Shown here one piece after another: positions 5,923-53,312 of a stretch of 64,000 nucleotides of DNA. The translations under genes were made by a program, and so were the position numbers. The first letter of the stretch is position 1. Every line of letters begins with the position of its first letter. The stretch comes from Acidobacteriota bacterium. GTDB taxonomy: Bacteria > Acidobacteriota > Blastocatellia > Pyrinomonadales > Pyrinomonadaceae. The DNA is taken from NCBI GenBank assembly GCA_019639155.1, contig JAHBSJ010000007.1, forward strand, positions 109,429 to 173,428, read 5' to 3'. The notes beneath the pieces were generated by a model, which saw only the letters and a program-made list of their open reading frames with translations, was not told where the DNA came from and ran no database searches.

Positions 5923-7593
5923 TTACACGCCGGGCATTGCTTTCTTTAGCGGTCTGATTATCACGAATAGTACAACCGCCATGAACAAAGCCATGAGTCC
6001 AAGTATCAAGAAGAAGTTGGACTGATACCAGATACTCCAATAAATACCGATCGCGGTCAACTTGTTCCCGATCGCGGTAGCCACGAACCAGCCGCCCATC
6101 AAAAGGCCCCGCATTCTTATCGGAGCGACCTTCGATACCAACGAAAGCCCCATCGGTGACAGCATAAGCTCACCAAGTGAAATGATCGCATACGCCAAAA
6201 GCAGCCAAAACGGCGATACGGTGAACAAGAAGGCATGTTTGAGAAAAAGGTCACGATACTTTGAGCCGTCGCCGGGCGATACCTTGTCGATCGCGGCGAT
6301 CAGACGGTCGCTCCCCTCCATTTTTTGACCGGTTGCCTTATCCGTATCCGGCGAGAATTTCACGTCATCGATGAGGTTCTTTCCATCATCAGCTTTAGCG
6401 GATATTAGTTTGTCGAGCAAGGCCTGCGGCACACCGTCAGCGGCGAGGTTCGTCATTACACGCTCGTTTATCCTAAATGAACCGCCCCGCATTTCCTCTG
6501 CCGTATAGACCTTACCTTCGCCGATCACTGCGGCATACCAAAGAACAAAGAACGACAACCCCGTTAACGTCATTCCGAAGGCCATCTTAACCGGTGTGGA
6601 AGGTTCCTTGCCTTTCTTATCAAGCCAGCCCCAGAACCAAACGAGCGGGAAGGTCAGGACGATGATCCAGAAAGGATTGATAGCATTGGAGATCGTCCCT
6701 GATACATTCCATGCTGTATTGTCATCTGCCCAATAAGTAATCGTAGAACCGTTCTGATGGAATACCATCCAAAAGACAATGACAATAAGAAAGATGACAA
6801 TAAGGGCCGTAACGCGCTTCCAATCAGGAACCGCATCCATTAAAGAGGCCTTCTGCGAGGCAGTGGTCTCGTTGTTGCCACCCTCATCCTGGCTGCTGAC
6901 GCCGTGAGGCGGAGCGTCAACAGAAACCGCTGCGGTATCAGCTGCCTCGGAAGCGCCGGCAATACGTTGCTTGAGAGCATCCGGATCCTCGACCAAATTC
7001 TTCCATCGCCAAAGGATCGCGACTGAGATGACCATTCCAAATGCCGCCACAGCAAATGCAGCATGGAAGCCAAAATACGCCTTGACGATCTCCATTACGA
7101 TCGGTGCCAGCAAAGCTCCGACGTTAATGCCCATGTAGAAAATATTGTAGGCACGGTCTTTCAGGTGGCTGCCTTCGGGATAAAGGTTGCCGACCATGGT
7201 CGAGACGTTAGGTTTGAAGAAGCCGTTGCCGATGACCAGGCATGTTAATGCGGCATATACGGCCCAGATCTGCGGGATTGACAGCAGGCCGTGTCCGGCC
7301 ATGAAAAAGAAACCGCCTATCATCACGGCCTTGCGATAGCCGGTTATCTTGTCAGCGATCAAACCGCCGATCAGCGGGCTCGCGTAGACGAACATCAGAT
7401 AGTTCGCATAAAGTGAAGTTGCCTCGGCGGCTGTCCAGCCAAAGCCTTCGACAGGATCCCGAAGGTAGAGCGTAAATAACGCCAGCATCGAGTAGAAGCT
7501 GAACCTTTCCCACATCTCAGTGCCGAAAAGCACATACAGACCTCTCGGGTGTTCATGAACATCACCGTTGGTCAATGTTGCCGCATTTGCCAT
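5923..7593 (-). CDS. POT/PTR2 family proton-coupled peptide transporter
   Basis: A 556-residue integral membrane protein of the major facilitator superfamily. The first helix has the family signature ExxERF (TEMWERFSFY), and the later motif FYMGINVGALLAPIV is the PTR2 signature region. It should import di- and tripeptides using the proton gradient at the inner membrane. A long hydrophilic loop (about residues 205-240) separates the two halves, and a second large loop (about 345-425) sits between late helices, longer than in DtpT-like relatives. It is a single-gene unit, convergent with the small gene at 5614 and divergent from 7680. Confidence 0.88.
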   Translation of the reverse strand: MANAATLTNGDVHEHPRGLYVLFGTEMWERFSFYSMLALFTLYLRDPVEGFGWTAAEATSLYANYLMFVYASPLIGGLIADKITGYRKAVMIGGFFFMAGHGLLSIPQIWAVYAALTCLVIGNGFFKPNVSTMVGNLYPEGSHLKDRAYNIFYMGINVGALLAPIVMEIVKAYFGFHAAFAVAAFGMVISVAILWRWKNLVEDPDALKQRIAGASEAADTAAVSVDAPPHGVSSQDEGGNNETTASQKASLMDAVPDWKRVTALIVIFLIVIVFWMVFHQNGSTITYWADDNTAWNVSGTISNAINPFWIIVLTFPLVWFWGWLDKKGKEPSTPVKMAFGMTLTGLSFFVLWYAAVIGEGKVYTAEEMRGGSFRINERVMTNLAADGVPQALLDKLISAKADDGKNLIDDVKFSPDTDKATGQKMEGSDRLIAAIDKVSPGDGSKYRDLFLKHAFLFTVSPFWLLLAYAIISLGELMLSPMGLSLVSKVAPIRMRGLLMGGWFVATAIGNKLTAIGIYWSIWYQSNFFLILGLMALFMAVVLFVIIRPLKKAMPGV

Positions 7594-47056: not shown

Positions 47057-47812
47057 ATGGGTTGGAAGAATATCCCGTTTTTTCGATGGTCTTTTGTCAG
47101 GATGTTTCTTGGGATAAAGCATCTCACGACCGAATGGCAGGTCGGCGACGGCCGCGAAGCGAAGCTGGCTGACTACGTCGAAGCGAATGCAAAGCCCGGC
47201 GATGCTGCCGATGCCGTTCGTGTAATTGACGAATTCGCTTACAACGAAAGCTTTCTGATCAACGTCGGCGACGAAAAAGGCGAGATCCTGGACGACGCGG
47301 TCAGACGGGCGAATGCAAAGCGTATCTTGGAACTCGGCACCTACTGCGGCTACAGCTCGCTGCGGATGGCCGTCACCGCACCTGATGCACATATTTACTC
47401 GATCGAATTCAATGCTGACAACGCCGACATCGCACGGCGGATCCATCGGCACGCGGGCGTTGGCGACCGCATCACCGTCGTGGTCGGAACGCTGGGCGAC
47501 GGCGGCCAGACCGTCGATGCATTGGAAAGCGAGCACGGGTTCACGCCCGGCTCGGTCGATCTCGTTTTCCTCGATCATGCAAAAGAGGCCTACTTATCGG
47601 ATATTCATCTTATCGTCGAACGCGGTTGGCTGCGGCCTGGAGCGCTTGCGGTTGCGGATAACGTCAAGTTTCCCGGCGCACCGGAATACCACGCTTACAT
47701 GAAAGAGCACGAAGGTCGGCTATGGAAGACCGAGGAACATGAGACTCACGTCGAATATCAGACAATGATAAAGGACCTCGTGCTTGTGTCGGAATACTTG
47801 GGGGAAAGTTAG
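47057..47812 (+). CDS. Catechol O-methyltransferase-type SAM enzyme
   Basis: ATG 47057 has AGGAG 8 nt upstream; the GTG at 47051 is too close. The 251-residue class I methyltransferase has the SAM motif ILELGTYCGYSSLRMA, the acidic loop IYSIEFNADNADIA, and VFLDHAKEAYLSDI and ADNVKFPGAPEY, matching the Mg-binding Asp and Asn of catechol O-methyltransferases. It would methylate a catechol hydroxyl. It is divergent from marR-reductase-dioxygenase, which points to a shared catechol pathway. Its 3' end overlaps the convergent aldehyde dehydrogenase by 4 bp. Confidence 0.88.
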   Translation: MGWKNIPFFRWSFVRMFLGIKHLTTEWQVGDGREAKLADYVEANAKPGDAADAVRVIDEFAYNESFLINVGDEKGEILDDAVRRANAKRILELGTYCGYSSLRMAVTAPDAHIYSIEFNADNADIARRIHRHAGVGDRITVVVGTLGDGGQTVDALESEHGFTPGSVDLVFLDHAKEAYLSDIHLIVERGWLRPGALAVADNVKFPGAPEYHAYMKEHEGRLWKTEEHETHVEYQTMIKDLVLVSEYLGES

Positions 47813-49455
47813 GAGCGTCGTCTGTTCCTTACTAGTTCTTTTATTCGTGTGAATAGCTGCGGCATCATTCCCGTCGTTTTGATCAGCGAGCCGGTGGCGA
47901 ATTTGGTCGCGAATTGGCGGAAAGTGTCGACCGCGGCCGGCGAATAGGGAAACCACCACGCGTCGGGCAGCAGTGCGGTGCGGTTCGAGTGGATGTGCTG
48001 CGGCTGGACGAGCTCCAAGAGGCCTTCGATGCCGTGCGTGCGGCCGCGGCCGGAGTTTTTGAAGCCGCCCCACGGCGTCTGGCCGATGCCGTGCGTGTAT
48101 AGATGTTCGTTGATGCAGACGGTGCCCGCCTCGATCTGCTCGGCGACGCGGCGGCCTTTTGCGTAGTCGCGGGTCCAGACGCTCGCCGTCAGGCCGAATT
48201 CGGTATCGTTCGCCAAGGCGATCGCCTCTTCCTCGGTATCAAAGACGCAGATCGGCAGCGTCGGGCCGAACGTCTCGACCTGCATCGGCCGCATGTCGTT
48301 CGTCGCACCGGTGATAACGGTCGGTTCGTAGAAAAAGCCCGCTGCGGTTTCGATGTCATCGGTCGGCTCGGTGAATCCGGGCACGTGAATGCGTCCGCCG
48401 GTCTCGATGATTGCACCGCAGTCGCGAAATTCTTCGACGTGTTCGAAAACGATCTTAAGCTGCCGCTCGGACGACATCGCACCGATCGAAACGTCCTCGC
48501 GTTCGCCGCTGCCTTGTTTGAGTTTCAGCGTACGGTCGATGATCTTTTGCGTCAGCTTTTCGGCGATCGGCCGCTGGACGTAGAGCCTCTCGACCGACGC
48601 ACAGTTTTGGCCGGAGTTGGAAAACGCACTCCATACGGCGGCATCGGCGGCGAGTTCGATATTCGCGTCGTCGAAAACGATCATCGGGTCTTTGCCGCCG
48701 AGTTCGAGGACGCACGAAGTGAGATTCTTGGCCGCTGCCTCTGCGATCCTTTTGCCGGTGGCGACCGAACCCGTGAAAAGTATCTTGTCCGGCGGTGCTT
48801 CGACGAGTGCGGCTCCCGTTTCGCCGGCACCGCAAACGACCTGAACGACGTCCGGCGGAAAACCTGCTTTTTCGAATATCTCGCCGATCCTCAGCCCGAC
48901 GAAAGGCGTCAATTCCGAAGGTTTCAGGACGACCGTGTTGCCCGCCATCACTGCCATTACGGCTTCGCCAAGCGGTATCGAAAAAGGATAGTTCCACGCA
49001 GGGATGACCGCGACCACGCCTAGCGGCTGATAGACGATCTTGGAAAAACGGCCGAGCAATTCAAAAAGCCCGATGCCGATTCGCCGCGGCCGCAGCATCT
49101 TTTCGGCGCCGTTCGCGATCCAACGCATCAAATCGAGTACGGGCGCGATCTCGAACGCGAGGGCCTCGGCGACGGGCTTACCCGATTCGCGTGAGATGAG
49201 CAGAGCTATGTCGTCCATCTCGGCGAGGATCACTTCGCGAGCGGCTAGAACGAGGCGTTTGCGTTCAGCGAACGAGGTCTTTTTCCAGCTCCGGAACGCC
49301 GCACGCGAACGCCCAACCGCAGCGAGCACTTCATCGGCGGATGCAGCGTTAACCCGGCCGATCTCAGCACCGGTCGCCGGATCGAAAGAGACGATCTCGT
49401 TTGCGGGGTCGGCGATAGTTTGTACTGCGGACATGGTCTCACTGCCAAATGGCAT
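47809..49455 (-). CDS. Aldehyde dehydrogenase family protein
   Basis: A 548-residue NAD(P)-dependent dehydrogenase with the usual sites: IPAWNYPFSIPL, the dinucleotide loop FTGSVATGKRI, the catalytic glutamate ELGGKDP and nucleophile SGQNCASVERLYV. A C-terminal extension of about 60 residues (SNRTALLPDAWWF onward) exceeds the common length of about 480-500. The ATG at 49455 shares a base with the upstream stop codon (TGATG), so it is translated by coupling. It belongs to a three-gene operon with alaS and an 85-residue gene. Substrate unknown. Confidence 0.93.
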   Translation of the reverse strand: MPFGSETMSAVQTIADPANEIVSFDPATGAEIGRVNAASADEVLAAVGRSRAAFRSWKKTSFAERKRLVLAAREVILAEMDDIALLISRESGKPVAEALAFEIAPVLDLMRWIANGAEKMLRPRRIGIGLFELLGRFSKIVYQPLGVVAVIPAWNYPFSIPLGEAVMAVMAGNTVVLKPSELTPFVGLRIGEIFEKAGFPPDVVQVVCGAGETGAALVEAPPDKILFTGSVATGKRIAEAAAKNLTSCVLELGGKDPMIVFDDANIELAADAAVWSAFSNSGQNCASVERLYVQRPIAEKLTQKIIDRTLKLKQGSGEREDVSIGAMSSERQLKIVFEHVEEFRDCGAIIETGGRIHVPGFTEPTDDIETAAGFFYEPTVITGATNDMRPMQVETFGPTLPICVFDTEEEAIALANDTEFGLTASVWTRDYAKGRRVAEQIEAGTVCINEHLYTHGIGQTPWGGFKNSGRGRTHGIEGLLELVQPQHIHSNRTALLPDAWWFPYSPAAVDTFRQFATKFATGSLIKTTGMMPQLFTRIKELVRNRRRS

Positions 49456-49712
49456 CAGCGGCCCTCGAAATATTCATAATCGGGCGGGTGAAAACGCGAT
49501 TTGATACGGTCAATGATCTCCTGCTCGCGGCCCTTTGCCCAATCGGGAAAACTTATGTGGCTGAAAAATATCATATGATGCGCCCGCCCCGTCAACATCT
49601 CGCCGTCAATGACAATCTCATGCCATTCACGACCGCGGACCTCAGCATAGTACATCAGGTCACGGCCCGTATGGCCGACCGACCAGGTTCCGTCTGCGGG
49701 TATGTCGCTCAT
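49455..49712 (-). CDS. Small protein of unknown function between alaS and aldehyde dehydrogenase
   Basis: An 85-residue soluble protein rich in aromatic residues (HMIFFSHISFPDWAKG, FHPPDYEYFEGR). No family recognised. Its start overlaps the alaS stop by 4 nt (ATGA) and its stop overlaps the next start by 1 nt, so it is clearly a real, coupled gene. Its role may be related to the tRNA or aldehyde functions on either side. Confidence 0.65.
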   Translation of the reverse strand: MSDIPADGTWSVGHTGRDLMYYAEVRGREWHEIVIDGEMLTGRAHHMIFFSHISFPDWAKGREQEIIDRIKSRFHPPDYEYFEGR

Positions 49713-51670
49713 GTAAAGGACCTCTCGACGATCGCAAAGGCTGCGTCGATCGCTTCGCTGAGTTTTGTGGGGTCGGTTCCGCCGCCTTCGGCCATGTCGG
49801 CCTTTCCGCCGCCTTTTCCGCCGACGATAGGTGCGATCTCGCGTATGATGTCGCCCGCTCGCACTTTTCCGGTCAGGTCGTCCGAAACGCGGACGATCAG
49901 ACCGACCTTGTCTTCGTCTTTGCGGCCGATGATGACGACGCCGCTTTTCAGCCGAGCGAGCAGAGTATCGGAAAGCTGCCTCGTCGCTCCGGCGTCCAGA
50001 CCCTCGACGATCTTTGCGAGCACCTTTATGCCGCCGATCTCCTTAATGTCGTCGCTGTCGCCGTTCGCCGCGGAACCGCCGCCCATCGCCGCCTTCAGCT
50101 TCAGGTCGTCCATCTCCTTGCGGGTGCGTTTCAGCTCTTCCTGCAGTTTGGCGATAGCGTTCGGCAGGTTGTCGCGTTGGGTATTGAGTGCCGCAAGCGA
50201 TGCGTCGATCAGCTTTTCGTCCGCACGAAAACGCTCGAATGCGTCGTAGCCCGTGATGGCACGGATACGCCGAACGCCGGAGGCGATGGCTTCGTCGGAG
50301 GTGATCTTGAACGAACCGATGTCGCCGGTCGCTCGAACGTGAGTTCCGCCGCATAGCTCCATCGAGAATTTGCCGTCGCCGACCGAAAGCACGCGAACGT
50401 CCGAGCCGTATTTCTCGCCGAACATCGCGACGGCCCCGACGCGCATCGCGTCCTCCAGCGCCATCATGTTCGTCGTAACCGGTTCATTTTGCAGGATATA
50501 GCGGTTTACCAGATCCTCAACCTCGGCTATCTCGGCGTCGGTCATCGGCTGATAGTGCGTGAAATCAAAACGAAGATAGTTCGGCGCAACGACCGAGCCT
50601 GCCTGTTTAACGTGCGTGCCGAGTACCTCTTTCAGCGCAGCGTGAACGAGATGCGTCGCGGTGTGATTCCGCCGCGTGGCATCGCGCTTCGACTCGTCAA
50701 CGATCGCCGAAACAGTGTCGCCGACCGAGATGCTGCTTTTCTCGACGGTAACCTTGTGTATGATCAGTCCTGCCACCGGTGAGTATGTGTCGTGAACGGC
50801 TGCCCTTAGGTCAGAACCACCTGCGGTAGCGGGTGGTTTAACGTCAACATCGCCGGAGTTCAACCGCCCACTACCGTAGGCGGTTCTGACAATAACGCCC
50901 ACATCACCGACCTGGCCGCCGCTTTCGGCGTAGAACGGTGTGCGGTCGAGAACGACGCTGCCCTGCTGTCCCTCGCCGAGCGAATCGACCTGAACGTCGC
51001 CGTCGAGAATGGCAACGACCTTAGCGTTATCAACCCGAGTCGTTTCGTAGCCGAGGAACTCATTCGCACCGAGTTTTTCCGCCAGCTCCAGATAAACCGG
51101 CGAGACCTGCGACTTGCGTTCCGTTTTGCCGATGCCGGACTGCTGCTGCAGTGCCTGCAGAGCGGCGTCAAAGCGCTCGTTGAAATCGTCCTCTTCCAGG
51201 GCGATGCCTTTTTCTTCCAGGTAAACGCGGATCAGATCGCGCGGAGTGCCGTATGTGTCGTACAGCGATGCGATCGAGCGGAAAAGCTCGTCGTCAGCCG
51301 CGGTATTCGCGTCTATGTTGAGTTCGCCGAGCTTCGACAGGCCGACAGTGACCGTATTCCCGAAACGTTCCTCTTCCAGCCGCACCATCTTGCCGATGAA
51401 ATCGCGTTGGGTCTCGAGTTCGGGAAAAGCGCCGCTGAAATCATCGACGACCTTGTCGCAGACCTTGTAGAAAAATGCGTCGCTCAGGCCGAGGTGTTCG
51501 CGGCCGTGATAGATGGCACGCCGCATTATCTTGCGGAGGACGTAGTTGCGGCCTTCGTTGCCGGGGAGGATGCCGTCGGCGATGGCAAACGCGGTCGCAC
51601 GCGCGTGGTCGGCGATCACGCGGGCGGCAAACTGCTGCTGTTCATTCAGTCGTTCGTAAACGCTCATCAC
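49709..51670 (-). CDS. Alanyl-tRNA synthetase lacking the N-terminal catalytic domain
   Basis: A 653-residue protein aligned by eye to about residue 285 onward of E. coli AlaRS. It starts (GTG 51670 or ATG 51667, no ribosome-binding site) at the tRNA-recognition helix ARVIADHARATAFAIADG. The editing domain is complete with HTATH and CGGTH zinc/hydrolase residues (about 375 and 465), and the C-Ala domain follows with the GGKGGGK glycine loop. The aminoacylation domain of about 280 residues is missing, and only 58 nt separate this start from the upstream TPR gene, so it cannot be encoded just upstream. An 81-bp palindromic element is inserted in frame (50810-50890). It may be a split synthetase, an editing-only protein, or a decayed duplicate. 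Confidence 0.85.
   Translation of the reverse strand: MMSVYERLNEQQQFAARVIADHARATAFAIADGILPGNEGRNYVLRKIMRRAIYHGREHLGLSDAFFYKVCDKVVDDFSGAFPELETQRDFIGKMVRLEEERFGNTVTVGLSKLGELNIDANTAADDELFRSIASLYDTYGTPRDLIRVYLEEKGIALEEDDFNERFDAALQALQQQSGIGKTERKSQVSPVYLELAEKLGANEFLGYETTRVDNAKVVAILDGDVQVDSLGEGQQGSVVLDRTPFYAESGGQVGDVGVIVRTAYGSGRLNSGDVDVKPPATAGGSDLRAAVHDTYSPVAGLIIHKVTVEKSSISVGDTVSAIVDESKRDATRRNHTATHLVHAALKEVLGTHVKQAGSVVAPNYLRFDFTHYQPMTDAEIAEVEDLVNRYILQNEPVTTNMMALEDAMRVGAVAMFGEKYGSDVRVLSVGDGKFSMELCGGTHVRATGDIGSFKITSDEAIASGVRRIRAITGYDAFERFRADEKLIDASLAALNTQRDNLPNAIAKLQEELKRTRKEMDDLKLKAAMGGGSAANGDSDDIKEIGGIKVLAKIVEGLDAGATRQLSDTLLARLKSGVVIIGRKDEDKVGLIVRVSDDLTGKVRAGDIIREIAPIVGGKGGGKADMAEGGGTDPTKLSEAIDAAFAIVERSFT
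50810..50890. repeat. 81-bp palindromic element inserted in frame in alaS
   Basis: Two 31-nt arms (50810-50840 and 50860-50890) are inverted copies with 26 of 31 positions matching, around a 19-nt loop. The element is exactly 27 codons and keeps the alaS frame open. Its peptide includes KPPATAGGSDL and falls between VGDVGVIV and AVHDTYSPVAG, a surface loop of the editing domain in other AlaRS. It resembles palindromic in-gene elements such as those of Rickettsia. Confidence 0.85.
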
Positions 51671-51700
51671 TCACGATGATAACAATATCACCGCGGCGAT

Positions 51701-51723
51701 GTCAGCAGGCAGGCCGTGCTGAC
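51701..51723. repeat. Inverted repeat at the 5' edge of truncated alaS
   Basis: GTCAGCA (51701-51707) and TGCTGAC (51717-51723) form a 7-bp perfect inverted repeat with a 9-nt loop, in the 58-nt gap between the TPR gene and the headless alaS. It could be a terminator or a trace of the rearrangement. Confidence 0.55.
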
Positions 51724-51728
51724 TTAGG

Positions 51729-53312
51729 TTAGTTCTTCTTCGGTGCCGCCAGCTCGCGGGCCTTTGCCTCGTCAGCGGCGGCCAGATCGTTGCGGCCCTG
51801 ATCACGGTAAACCCTGGCTCGCCCGGTGAAAACACGCGCATCTCGCGGTGTGAAGGTCAGTGCCTCGTTATAAGCTTCGAGCGCCTCATTGAGCAGCTTG
51901 GTCTTGTTCGCGAACGAGGTTCTTGATTCACTTCGTTTATTGCCACCTTTGATCATCAGTGCGGCTGAACACATCTCGCGGAGCCCCACAACGCTGATCG
52001 ATGATCTAAGTCTCGCAGACGTGTCATTTGGCCGTTTCGCCTGTATGACGTCCATCCATTCGATGCCGGTTTGGAATCCGGAACGGCAGGTCGTTACGCC
52101 GAAGATCATCTCGACAGAGGCTCCGATAAGGCCGATCTCACCGCTCTTGTCATTATCAAGCTCGCGATTTGCGGCCTGTATGCGTCGAAGCGTTTCCTTC
52201 ATCGCCGATTCAGTGATATCGAAATAGTCGTTGTCAGATTCGGCGTGTCTGCCCAAATCGGATAGCGAACGCGCACGCATTTTCAGCAGCTCTGTATAAA
52301 CTGACAACATTAGATCGTCGGCCGGCTGATGCTTGTTTTTCATCGGCAAAAACTGCAGCGAGCGTGTCACCAGAGCGACGACGAGCGGATGGTCCTTAGC
52401 CGTGGCGGCGGCTTGAGCCTGTTTGAATCCGTCGGCGACGGTCGTAACGGCTGCGGCTATCGTGGCAGGATCAGGTTTGGTGACCCTAGCCGGCGTCGGT
52501 GCGGGAGTGTTTCGCGGTCGAGTCCGTGCAGGCGTCGGGGCCGGTTTCGGCGTTCTCGTTGCGACCGGCGTTTTCACGACGGGGTTAGGTTTGGTTTGGG
52601 CCTTTACAGCGGCGGCCTTGGCGGCCTCGCTGTCTATATAGTCGCGATAGATCTTTGCGGCTTCGTAATTCGGGAAAAGCTTTAACGCCATTTCGGCGTC
52701 GGCCTTTGCGGCCGCGTAACGCTTAGCTGCAGCGTGAATCTTTGCCCGCGTGTAGAATGCGACGGCATCCTTAGGGTCGAGCCGGATCGCCATGTTCAGG
52801 TCGGGCAATGCCTTTGCAAGCTGGTTCGACAGTTCGTAGGCGACGCCGCGTTCACGATAGGCAAGTGCGCTTTTAGGGTTGATCTTTATCGCTTTATTGA
52901 GGTCCGAGAGCGCCTGCGCGAGCGACTTTTCATAGTCGATGGTCATCAGCCTGATGTACACGCTGCCTCGGGACGTCCAATACTCGGCGTCGTTCGGCTT
53001 TATCTCGATCGCTTTGGAAAAATCCGCTGCCGCCTGCCGGTAAAGAGGTTCGGTCGGTGCCGCCTGCGCCTTGTTGTAGAGCGAAAGCCCGCGGTTGAAA
53101 TATGCGGCCGAACTGTTAGGTCTAAGCTTGAGATACTCTGTGTAGTTGGCGATGGCGGCATCATATTGTCGTGCCGTATATTGATCGGTAGCTTTGTTGA
53201 AAAGCTGAGTCGCTCTCTCGTCTGCTGTCGCGGTCTGCCCGACTGCCAAAGCGGCAGCAACGAAGATCAGTAATGACAATGCCAATGATCGGCTGAATGC
53301 TATTCGTCTCAT
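51729..53312 (-). CDS. Secreted TPR-repeat protein
   Basis: A 527-residue exported protein (signal peptide to about AVGQT) with at least five TPR units between residues 33 and 220 (for example AAYFNRGLSLYNKAQ, AYRERGVAYELSNQLAKALPDLN). The middle is a Pro/Thr/Arg-rich linker (about 240-285), and the C-terminal part contains two further helical repeats. TPR proteins are scaffolds in the periplasm. Second gene after a small secreted protein (6-nt gap), followed by truncated alaS. Confidence 0.8.
   Translation of the reverse strand: MRRIAFSRSLALSLLIFVAAALAVGQTATADERATQLFNKATDQYTARQYDAAIANYTEYLKLRPNSSAAYFNRGLSLYNKAQAAPTEPLYRQAAADFSKAIEIKPNDAEYWTSRGSVYIRLMTIDYEKSLAQALSDLNKAIKINPKSALAYRERGVAYELSNQLAKALPDLNMAIRLDPKDAVAFYTRAKIHAAAKRYAAAKADAEMALKLFPNYEAAKIYRDYIDSEAAKAAAVKAQTKPNPVVKTPVATRTPKPAPTPARTRPRNTPAPTPARVTKPDPATIAAAVTTVADGFKQAQAAATAKDHPLVVALVTRSLQFLPMKNKHQPADDLMLSVYTELLKMRARSLSDLGRHAESDNDYFDITESAMKETLRRIQAANRELDNDKSGEIGLIGASVEMIFGVTTCRSGFQTGIEWMDVIQAKRPNDTSARLRSSISVVGLREMCSAALMIKGGNKRSESRTSFANKTKLLNEALEAYNEALTFTPRDARVFTGRARVYRDQGRNDLAAADEAKARELAAPKKN

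Follow-up and report, generated by a model that had tools for sequence, protein, structure and literature searches.

Alanyl-tRNA synthetase encoded by two unlinked genes throughout a genus of Pyrinomonadaceae

Alanyl-tRNA synthetase (AlaRS) is described in PMC10036535 as keeping one prototype structure throughout biology, with Nanoarchaeum equitans as a stated exception. In N. equitans, according to the same paper, the enzyme is made from two genes, NEQ 211 and 547, with alpha providing catalysis and beta the editing and C-Ala domains; alpha alone is weak and not specific for the G3:U70 pair, and beta restores both properties. Extracts of two further papers list AlaRS as split in N. equitans and unsplit in its relative Nst1 (PMC3655853), and state, with a citation of research on N. 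equitans, that AlaRS isoforms occur both fused and fissed (PMC11580382). In the open-licence literature we found no description of a split bacterial AlaRS, the split being known there only from N. equitans. Here we describe such a case in the Acidobacteriota, starting from a window of 64,000 nucleotides (the whole stretch of DNA that was analysed: positions 109,429 to 173,428 of contig JAHBSJ010000007.1, assembly GCA_019639155.1, family Pyrinomonadaceae). The window contains the gene for the C-terminal half of AlaRS, which we call beta; the gene for the catalytic half, alpha, lies on another contig, and the two-gene enzyme, cut at the boundary between catalysis and tRNA recognition, is found genus-wide.

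The genus shares with N. equitans a catalytic alpha and an editing/C-Ala beta encoded by two genes. The N. equitans cut, as described in the extract of PMC10036535, falls within the tRNA-recognition domain, whereas that of the genus lies just before it. N. equitans is, moreover, an archaeon with a highly reduced genome, whereas here the split runs through a bacterial genus with assemblies of 2.5-4.7 Mb whose family also includes relatives with intact and tandem forms. Leucyl-tRNA synthetase (LeuRS) is a class I enzyme, unlike the AlaRS considered here. The LeuRS of Aquifex aeolicus, encoded in two genes (extract of PMC4975002, citing Ma et al. 2006), is likewise a bacterial aminoacyl-tRNA synthetase in two pieces, but it comprises other domains and is cut at a tRNA-binding domain site. 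The bacterial alpha2beta2 glycyl-tRNA synthetase (GlyRS) also has a catalytic alpha and a separate beta chain, and the extract of PMC11580382 gives two chains as the usual bacterial state and an AARS Online table in which AlaRS and GlyRS-B alpha stand in one subclass; GlyRS is thus two-chain by rule, whereas for the AlaRS described here the one-piece enzyme of relatives is the rule, later divided. Finally, the mini-AlaRS of Tupanvirus departs from the AlaRS prototype (PMC10036535, in extract) by losing the editing and C-Ala domains and using one chain for catalysis and recognition, whereas the AlaRS of the genus loses nothing.

The two halves of the enzyme

The beta open reading frame (ORF) is listed on the minus strand at 49709-51670, with a GTG start at 51670. 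We take the ATG in the following codon (51667) as the start, because a Met at this position, 15 residues ahead of the RV[IV]ADH motif, is kept in all 37 scorable C-halves of the genus; the product then has 652 residues. It corresponds to the C-terminal two thirds of AlaRS, matching positions 265-550 of the Pfam model PF01411 and then tRNA_SAD and DHHA1, so the catalytic core is absent and the remainder whole. An earlier note, made by a model from the DNA letters alone, had recognised this ORF as an AlaRS without its aminoacylation domain, with both the HTATH and CGGTH motifs, no room for the missing part upstream and operon coupling to the next two genes, and in all of this it was right (Table 1): the upstream gene ends at 51729, leaving a gap of 58 nt that is too small for a catalytic core, and on the other side the beta stop overlaps the start of an 85-residue ORF that adjoins an aldehyde dehydrogenase (ALDH) gene at 49455.

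The missing catalytic core is a gene of 276 residues on another contig of the same genome (G000:C1:466154-466984), downstream of recX and ending shortly past class II motif 3. Searching PF01411 against this genome (25 contigs totalling 3.2 Mb; 94.7% complete) gave exactly two matches, to model positions 1-259 on contig C1 and 258-550 in the window, and no intact alaS. The earlier note had proposed such a search, for an intact alaS or an isolated N-domain, and had named three options: a split AlaRS, an editing/trans-acting protein accompanying an intact copy, and a rearrangement junction. The isolated N-domain and the missing intact copy favour the first; the second, as discussed below, is not supported. 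Alpha aligns with residues 5-269 and beta with residues 279-436 of E. coli AlaRS (sequences from the Protein Data Bank, PDB); in E. coli numbering the cut therefore falls between residues 269 and 279, past class II motif 3 and in the linker leading into the tRNA-recognition domain, and every domain is retained. On the NCBIfam model TIGR00344 (alaS, 847 positions), alpha covers 1-248 and beta 263-847.

The functional residues that we checked in both halves are kept. Alpha matches PF01411 at 6.2e-115, its motif 1-3 columns are invariant and AlaRS-type residues are present. Across the genus GKHNDL, and likewise RHHTFFEMLGNFSFGDYFK or its RHQ form, is found in 38 of 38 readable members, and DTG[ML]GLER in 39 of 39; two positions of the GPCGPCSEI stretch vary in 3 of 39. 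For beta, numbered from the ATG, the readable members keep N37 (36/36), D137 (37/37), both His residues at the ends of HTATH (37/37) and the Cys and His at the ends of CGGTH (36/36). By our reading of the alignment, N37 and D137 correspond to A. fulgidus N359 and D450, which the extract of PMC10036535 states to contact G3:U70. The three tRNA-Ala genes found (TGC, CGC and GGC; loci were taken for 30 of 42 tRNA matches) all carry G3:U70, A73 and an encoded CCA.

We conclude that the window gene is very probably the beta part of an AlaRS encoded by two unlinked genes, whose products likely assemble in trans. Alpha, which contains the entire class II catalytic core, would be the part that activates alanine. 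The tRNA-Ala would bind to beta, which would read G3:U70 by N37 and D137, present the acceptor end to alpha through the same surface that joins both domains in one-piece AlaRS, and afterwards edit mischarged tRNA. The location of N37 and D137 on beta predicts that it is beta that confers G3:U70 specificity on alpha.

Might the two proteins instead be joined after translation by a split intein, so that the mature enzyme is one chain? Split inteins do reunite split proteins in nature, the N. equitans DNA polymerase being one example. Intein halves at the cut were nevertheless rejected, judged by the length of the protein ends, and we regard this reading as extremely improbable: alpha ends 28-41 residues past motif 3 in 39 of 39 genomes, and the last Met of beta stands 9 or 15 residues before RV[IV]ADH in 37 of 37 scored, with no intein-sized extension in either.

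Distribution and origin of the split

Our genus sample comprised 39 genomes, the present one included, largely metagenome-assembled genomes (MAGs). The N-half was found in all 39 (the G016 copy is cut by a contig end), the C-half in 38 and an intact alaS in none, so that no member was found to encode AlaRS as one polypeptide. The complete N-halves read have 269-285 residues, and the stops flagged within some N-half matches fit the end of the ORF; the C-half is cut by a contig end in G005, G015, G018 and G032. The halves are unlinked: in 37 of 39 genomes a stretch of 5 kb or more following alpha or preceding beta on the contig is free of the other half (G018 and G028 are not judgeable). In G010, G019 and G031 they lie ∼15-19 kb apart on one contig, and in G003, G022, G034 and G082 more than 100 kb apart.

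Since many of the records are MAGs, an artefact of assembly or binning might be suspected. We see scarcely any chance of this, as 38 genomes share the cut with both halves, several in contigs of 0.3-2 Mb (for G026, C1 of 1.98 Mb and C2 of 0.99 Mb), and both halves are found on one contig in G003, G022, G034 and G082. The misassembly allowed for in the earlier note is not borne out by the comparison of related genomes that it had suggested, the same structure recurring in 37 further members.

Two records call for separate comment. In a UBA11740 record the C-half is disrupted by N-containing and unrelated sequence (L049, ∼6830-7515), probably a scaffolding fault. An N-half with 86% identity (among the best 120 of 7,999 scored) comes from a 6.99 Mb contig whose record bears the label Leptolyngbya sp. 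7M; it is probably from co-cultured or mixed-in Pyrinomonadaceae.

Forty-three other genomes of the family were scored for the form of alaS. Both parts are in one gene in 26 (G103 with one internal TGA flagged, G077 and G097 with the N-half partly unmatched), and four more are cut by contig ends yet continuous across the junction (G071, G085, G086, G088). Three have one gene with an in-frame linker of 21-66 residues (G061, G062, G064), and seven, from sister genera, have two adjacent genes in tandem (G066, G067, G068, G076, G079, G099, G102); three could not be scored (G098 and G100 as fragments, G093 without a match). The sister genera are likely to hold evolutionary intermediates of the split. 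The G068 bin contains two C-half starts on two contigs (L147, L148), 89% alike over 353 bases, representing a duplicate or a second strain.

Our genome searches for split alaS stayed within the phylum. In other families of the class the match is in one frame in 21 of 23 genomes and partial in G053 (model 1-34) and G057 (135-551). No pieces meeting near PF01411 model position 260 were found in 73 genomes outside the family (from a phylum sample of 79, in which the G140 and G167 matches come in pieces); an apparent free N-half in G134, from another family, was rejected, its N-part stopping at a contig end. Elsewhere in the phylum, four members of family f14 (G110, G150, G157, G163) have a one-piece AlaRS of ∼1000 residues in which the PF01411 match is interrupted near model position 376.

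Gene order suggests how the split arose. Two of the linker-bearing genomes, G061 and G062, have recX, alaS and ALDH in that order along a single strand, and recX lies upstream of alaS in many of the 36 family relatives scored. Within the genus, 20 of 39 members carry a same-strand recX upstream of alpha, and one more an opposite-strand recX (up to 2 kb taken); a same-strand ALDH gene lies downstream of beta in 18 of 38 (up to ∼3 kb taken). Each half has thus retained its own outer neighbour, most likely through a rearrangement in which alaS was severed between its domains and not copied. The rearrangement junction entertained in the earlier note is real in this sense, as an evolutionary breakpoint whose two sides have kept opposite flanks of the recX-alaS-ALDH order of sister genomes.

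A mobile element was considered as the cause of unlinking in the genus and rejected: in G019 and G031, where 17-19 kb separates beta from an upstream alpha of the same strand, the genes in between look ordinary by our reading. Of the three intervals read, that of G010 alone has phage-like genes between the halves (L275, C27:183000-199500), with an integrase-like ORF directly behind the N-half, a terminase-like ORF and long tape-measure-like ORFs, all named from reading the sequences.

Weighing the two-subunit enzyme

Since the search of the 39 genomes turned up no further AlaRS, assembly and activity of an alpha plus beta enzyme are strongly implied. The fold models of the separate halves fit an AlaRS in two parts. 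That of alpha (30-row alignment) has a mean predicted local distance difference test score (pLDDT) of 78 and a predicted template modelling score (pTM) of 0.81; its top 27 structure matches are all AlaRS entries, with template modelling (TM) scores of up to 0.84 to AlaRS catalytic domains, and Campylobacter GlyRS alpha (3rgl) comes at rank 41 (TM 0.49), below many threonyl-tRNA synthetase domains. For beta (24 rows, mean pLDDT 83) the best matches are AlaRS chains along its length (TM 0.48-0.61; root-mean-square deviation 9-11 in the top four), with further matches to AlaX (2e1b, 9iuw) and C-Ala (3g98) structures.

One alternative is that beta is a stand-alone editing or tRNA-binding factor, with alanylation carried out by an intact AlaRS that the assemblies have missed. 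Editing-domain proteins of the AlaX type do exist, and our own genome is incomplete. Beta shares the editing fold with AlaX, with a partial NCBIfam match (98.7 of 300 bits) that is far under the cut-off; AlaX proteins, however, have an editing domain without recognition or C-Ala domains and stand beside an intact AlaRS, whereas beta has both these domains, retains the G3:U70 readers and is the sole C-half found in its genome. In addition, an intact copy is absent from 39 of 39 genomes, alpha is a conserved catalytic core under selection, and synteny points to the halves of one gene. We consider this alternative, which the earlier note had also raised, to be very improbable.

Both halves are under purifying selection. 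Ratios of nonsynonymous to synonymous substitution (dN/dS) are 0.016-0.055 for alpha in 10 of 11 pairs, the remaining pair being saturated, and 0.048-0.178 for beta (11 pairs), and therefore the product matters. It is possible, if doubtful, that the enzyme works in trans and that its split is a tolerated accident of a broken linker, with nothing gained. Such an accident would explain the origin at the linker, and one beta, that of G002, is broken; the selection on both halves speaks against it, and it is compatible with a two-subunit enzyme rather than exclusive of it.

Several observations weigh against our interpretation. The C-half was not found in G030, and that of G002 changes frame after ∼470 residues. 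Several dS values are close to saturation, and the correlation between alpha and beta distances, in itself a point in favour (r 0.38, n=35; as high in 1 of 2000 permutations), is modest. The alpha model has pLDDT <50 at residues 33-38, 69-86 and 165-170, and the beta model has a pTM of only 0.53; the low TM scores of beta are probably an effect of domain placement. ALDH follows alaS or the C-half in just 5 of the 36 family relatives scored (G061, G062, G063, G065, G068), a count limited by the many loci that stop soon after the alaS gene. An unseen intact copy is possible in any single genome, but not credibly in all 39.

The junction, the window and implications

What has happened at the junction can be followed in the relatives. 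A quick tree of 85 concatenated rows (from 36 of the 39 genus genomes, 36 of the 43 others in the family and 13 of the 23 in the rest of the class; support by the SH-like approximate likelihood ratio test, SH-aLRT, only), which shows numbers of changes and not their direction, unites the genus members in a single clade (SH-aLRT 96) for 35 of 36, with G036 grouping with the tandem G067 and G068; the tandem state requires five changes or more. The tandem halves are separated by different cassettes or remnants: an AbrB-like ORF with PemK (PF02452, 1.1e-5) in G102; an AbrB-like ORF in G067, together with a fragment of PemK that is broken next to an IS200-type transposase (PF01797); a nucleotidyltransferase with a small ORF in G099, and also in G068 and G066, where AbrB-like fragments accompany it; BrnT (PF04365, 3.1e-21) in G076; and small-ORF and transposase sequences in G079. 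For PemK and BrnT the toxin-antitoxin label is firm, by family; for the nucleotidyltransferase and small ORF pair it is a guess. The AbrB-like ORF is so named from reading its sequence, having no Pfam match and a weak NCBIfam antitoxin match (19.4 of 70 bits). The nucleotidyltransferase cassette was rejected as specific to the alaS junction, as relatives occur in 48 of 72 family genomes (E ≤1e-3), mostly as weak matches and nearly all distant from alaS. No cassette remnants were detected in the alpha and beta loci taken from the genus (tblastn, E ≤1e-3).

The residue preceding RV[IV]ADH also marks the split. Intact family genes have Met in 24 of 26, with one Leu and one Cys; Cys is found in 7/7 tandem and 3/3 linker genes, and Cys, Ser or Ala in 37/37 readable genus betas, a replacement of Met in all 47 readable split or linker-bearing genes. 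All seven tandem betas have MxxYxxxDEQKxFACRV, and in G099 and G102 this split-type N-terminus is found even though their nearest relatives on the tree are intact, with FAMRV. Either the junction may have been swapped by recombination, or loss of the Met (ATG, beta codon 15) may have been favoured after the split. We suggest, tentatively and as less than an even chance, that the alaS domain junction in this family is a recurrent site of fission and re-fusion colonised by toxin-antitoxin cassettes, with the split junction passing between species by recombination. If so, loss of the Met would also remove a false internal start codon, the three long-linker genes with FACRV would be natural re-fusions, and a toxin-antitoxin pair could be locked into the operon of an essential gene, earning its position by making the enzyme two-part.

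Table 1. Beta and neighbouring features in the window
Feature	Position	Strand	Basis or remark
Beta, C-half of AlaRS without catalytic core	49709-51667	-	Pfam; TIGR00344 263-847/847; fold model
tRNA-recognition domain, ∼residues 1-200, edge approximate	51068-51667	-	Alignment
N37	51557-51559	-	Aligns with A. fulgidus N359
D137	51257-51259	-	Aligns with A. fulgidus D450
HTATH, first editing/zinc motif	50651-50665	-	Sequence, genus conservation
CGGTH, second editing/zinc motif	50339-50353	-	Sequence, genus conservation
DHHA1, globular part of C-Ala	49727-50029	-	E 2.4e-16; matches Aquifex C-Ala (3g98) in fold
Inverted pair of REP-like units, in frame, editing-domain loop	50811-50889	.	Encodes ...PPATAGG...
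85-residue ORF, ATGA overlap with beta stop	49455-49712	-	No Pfam match
ALDH gene	47809-49455	-	PF00171 9.8e-142
Tetratricopeptide repeat (TPR) gene, unrelated, upstream of beta	51729-53312	-	ORF list, Pfam

Two features of the locus are of separate interest. An inverted pair of units resembling repetitive extragenic palindromic (REP) elements, with a GGTAG core, lies within this essential gene. The unit has 50 genome-wide matches at up to two mismatches, against one for the reversed control; the corresponding stretch varies from 27 to 82 residues in measurable genus members, and related PPATAGG-type peptides are present in several of them. A search next to the C-half of 37 other genus members, where a few loci stop at or soon after the C-half gene, found nothing related to the 85-residue ORF.

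The split is easily overlooked in annotation. Against the TIGR00344 cut-off of 457 bits, beta alone scores 508.2 and alpha alone 376.3; the C-half thus passes as alaS while the N-half falls short, and automatic annotation can present the half enzyme as complete. Among the best 120 of 7,999 records scored, N-halves carry the names 'alanyl-tRNA synthetase', 'alanine--tRNA ligase-related protein' and 'hypothetical protein'.

With intact, linker-expanded, tandem and unlinked forms all present in one family, the fission of an essential gene can be traced stepwise. The genus is also natural material for examining the idea that one molecule could supply catalysis and another G3:U70 recognition, coming together in trans; this idea underlies models in which a catalytic core acquired modules for tRNA recognition.

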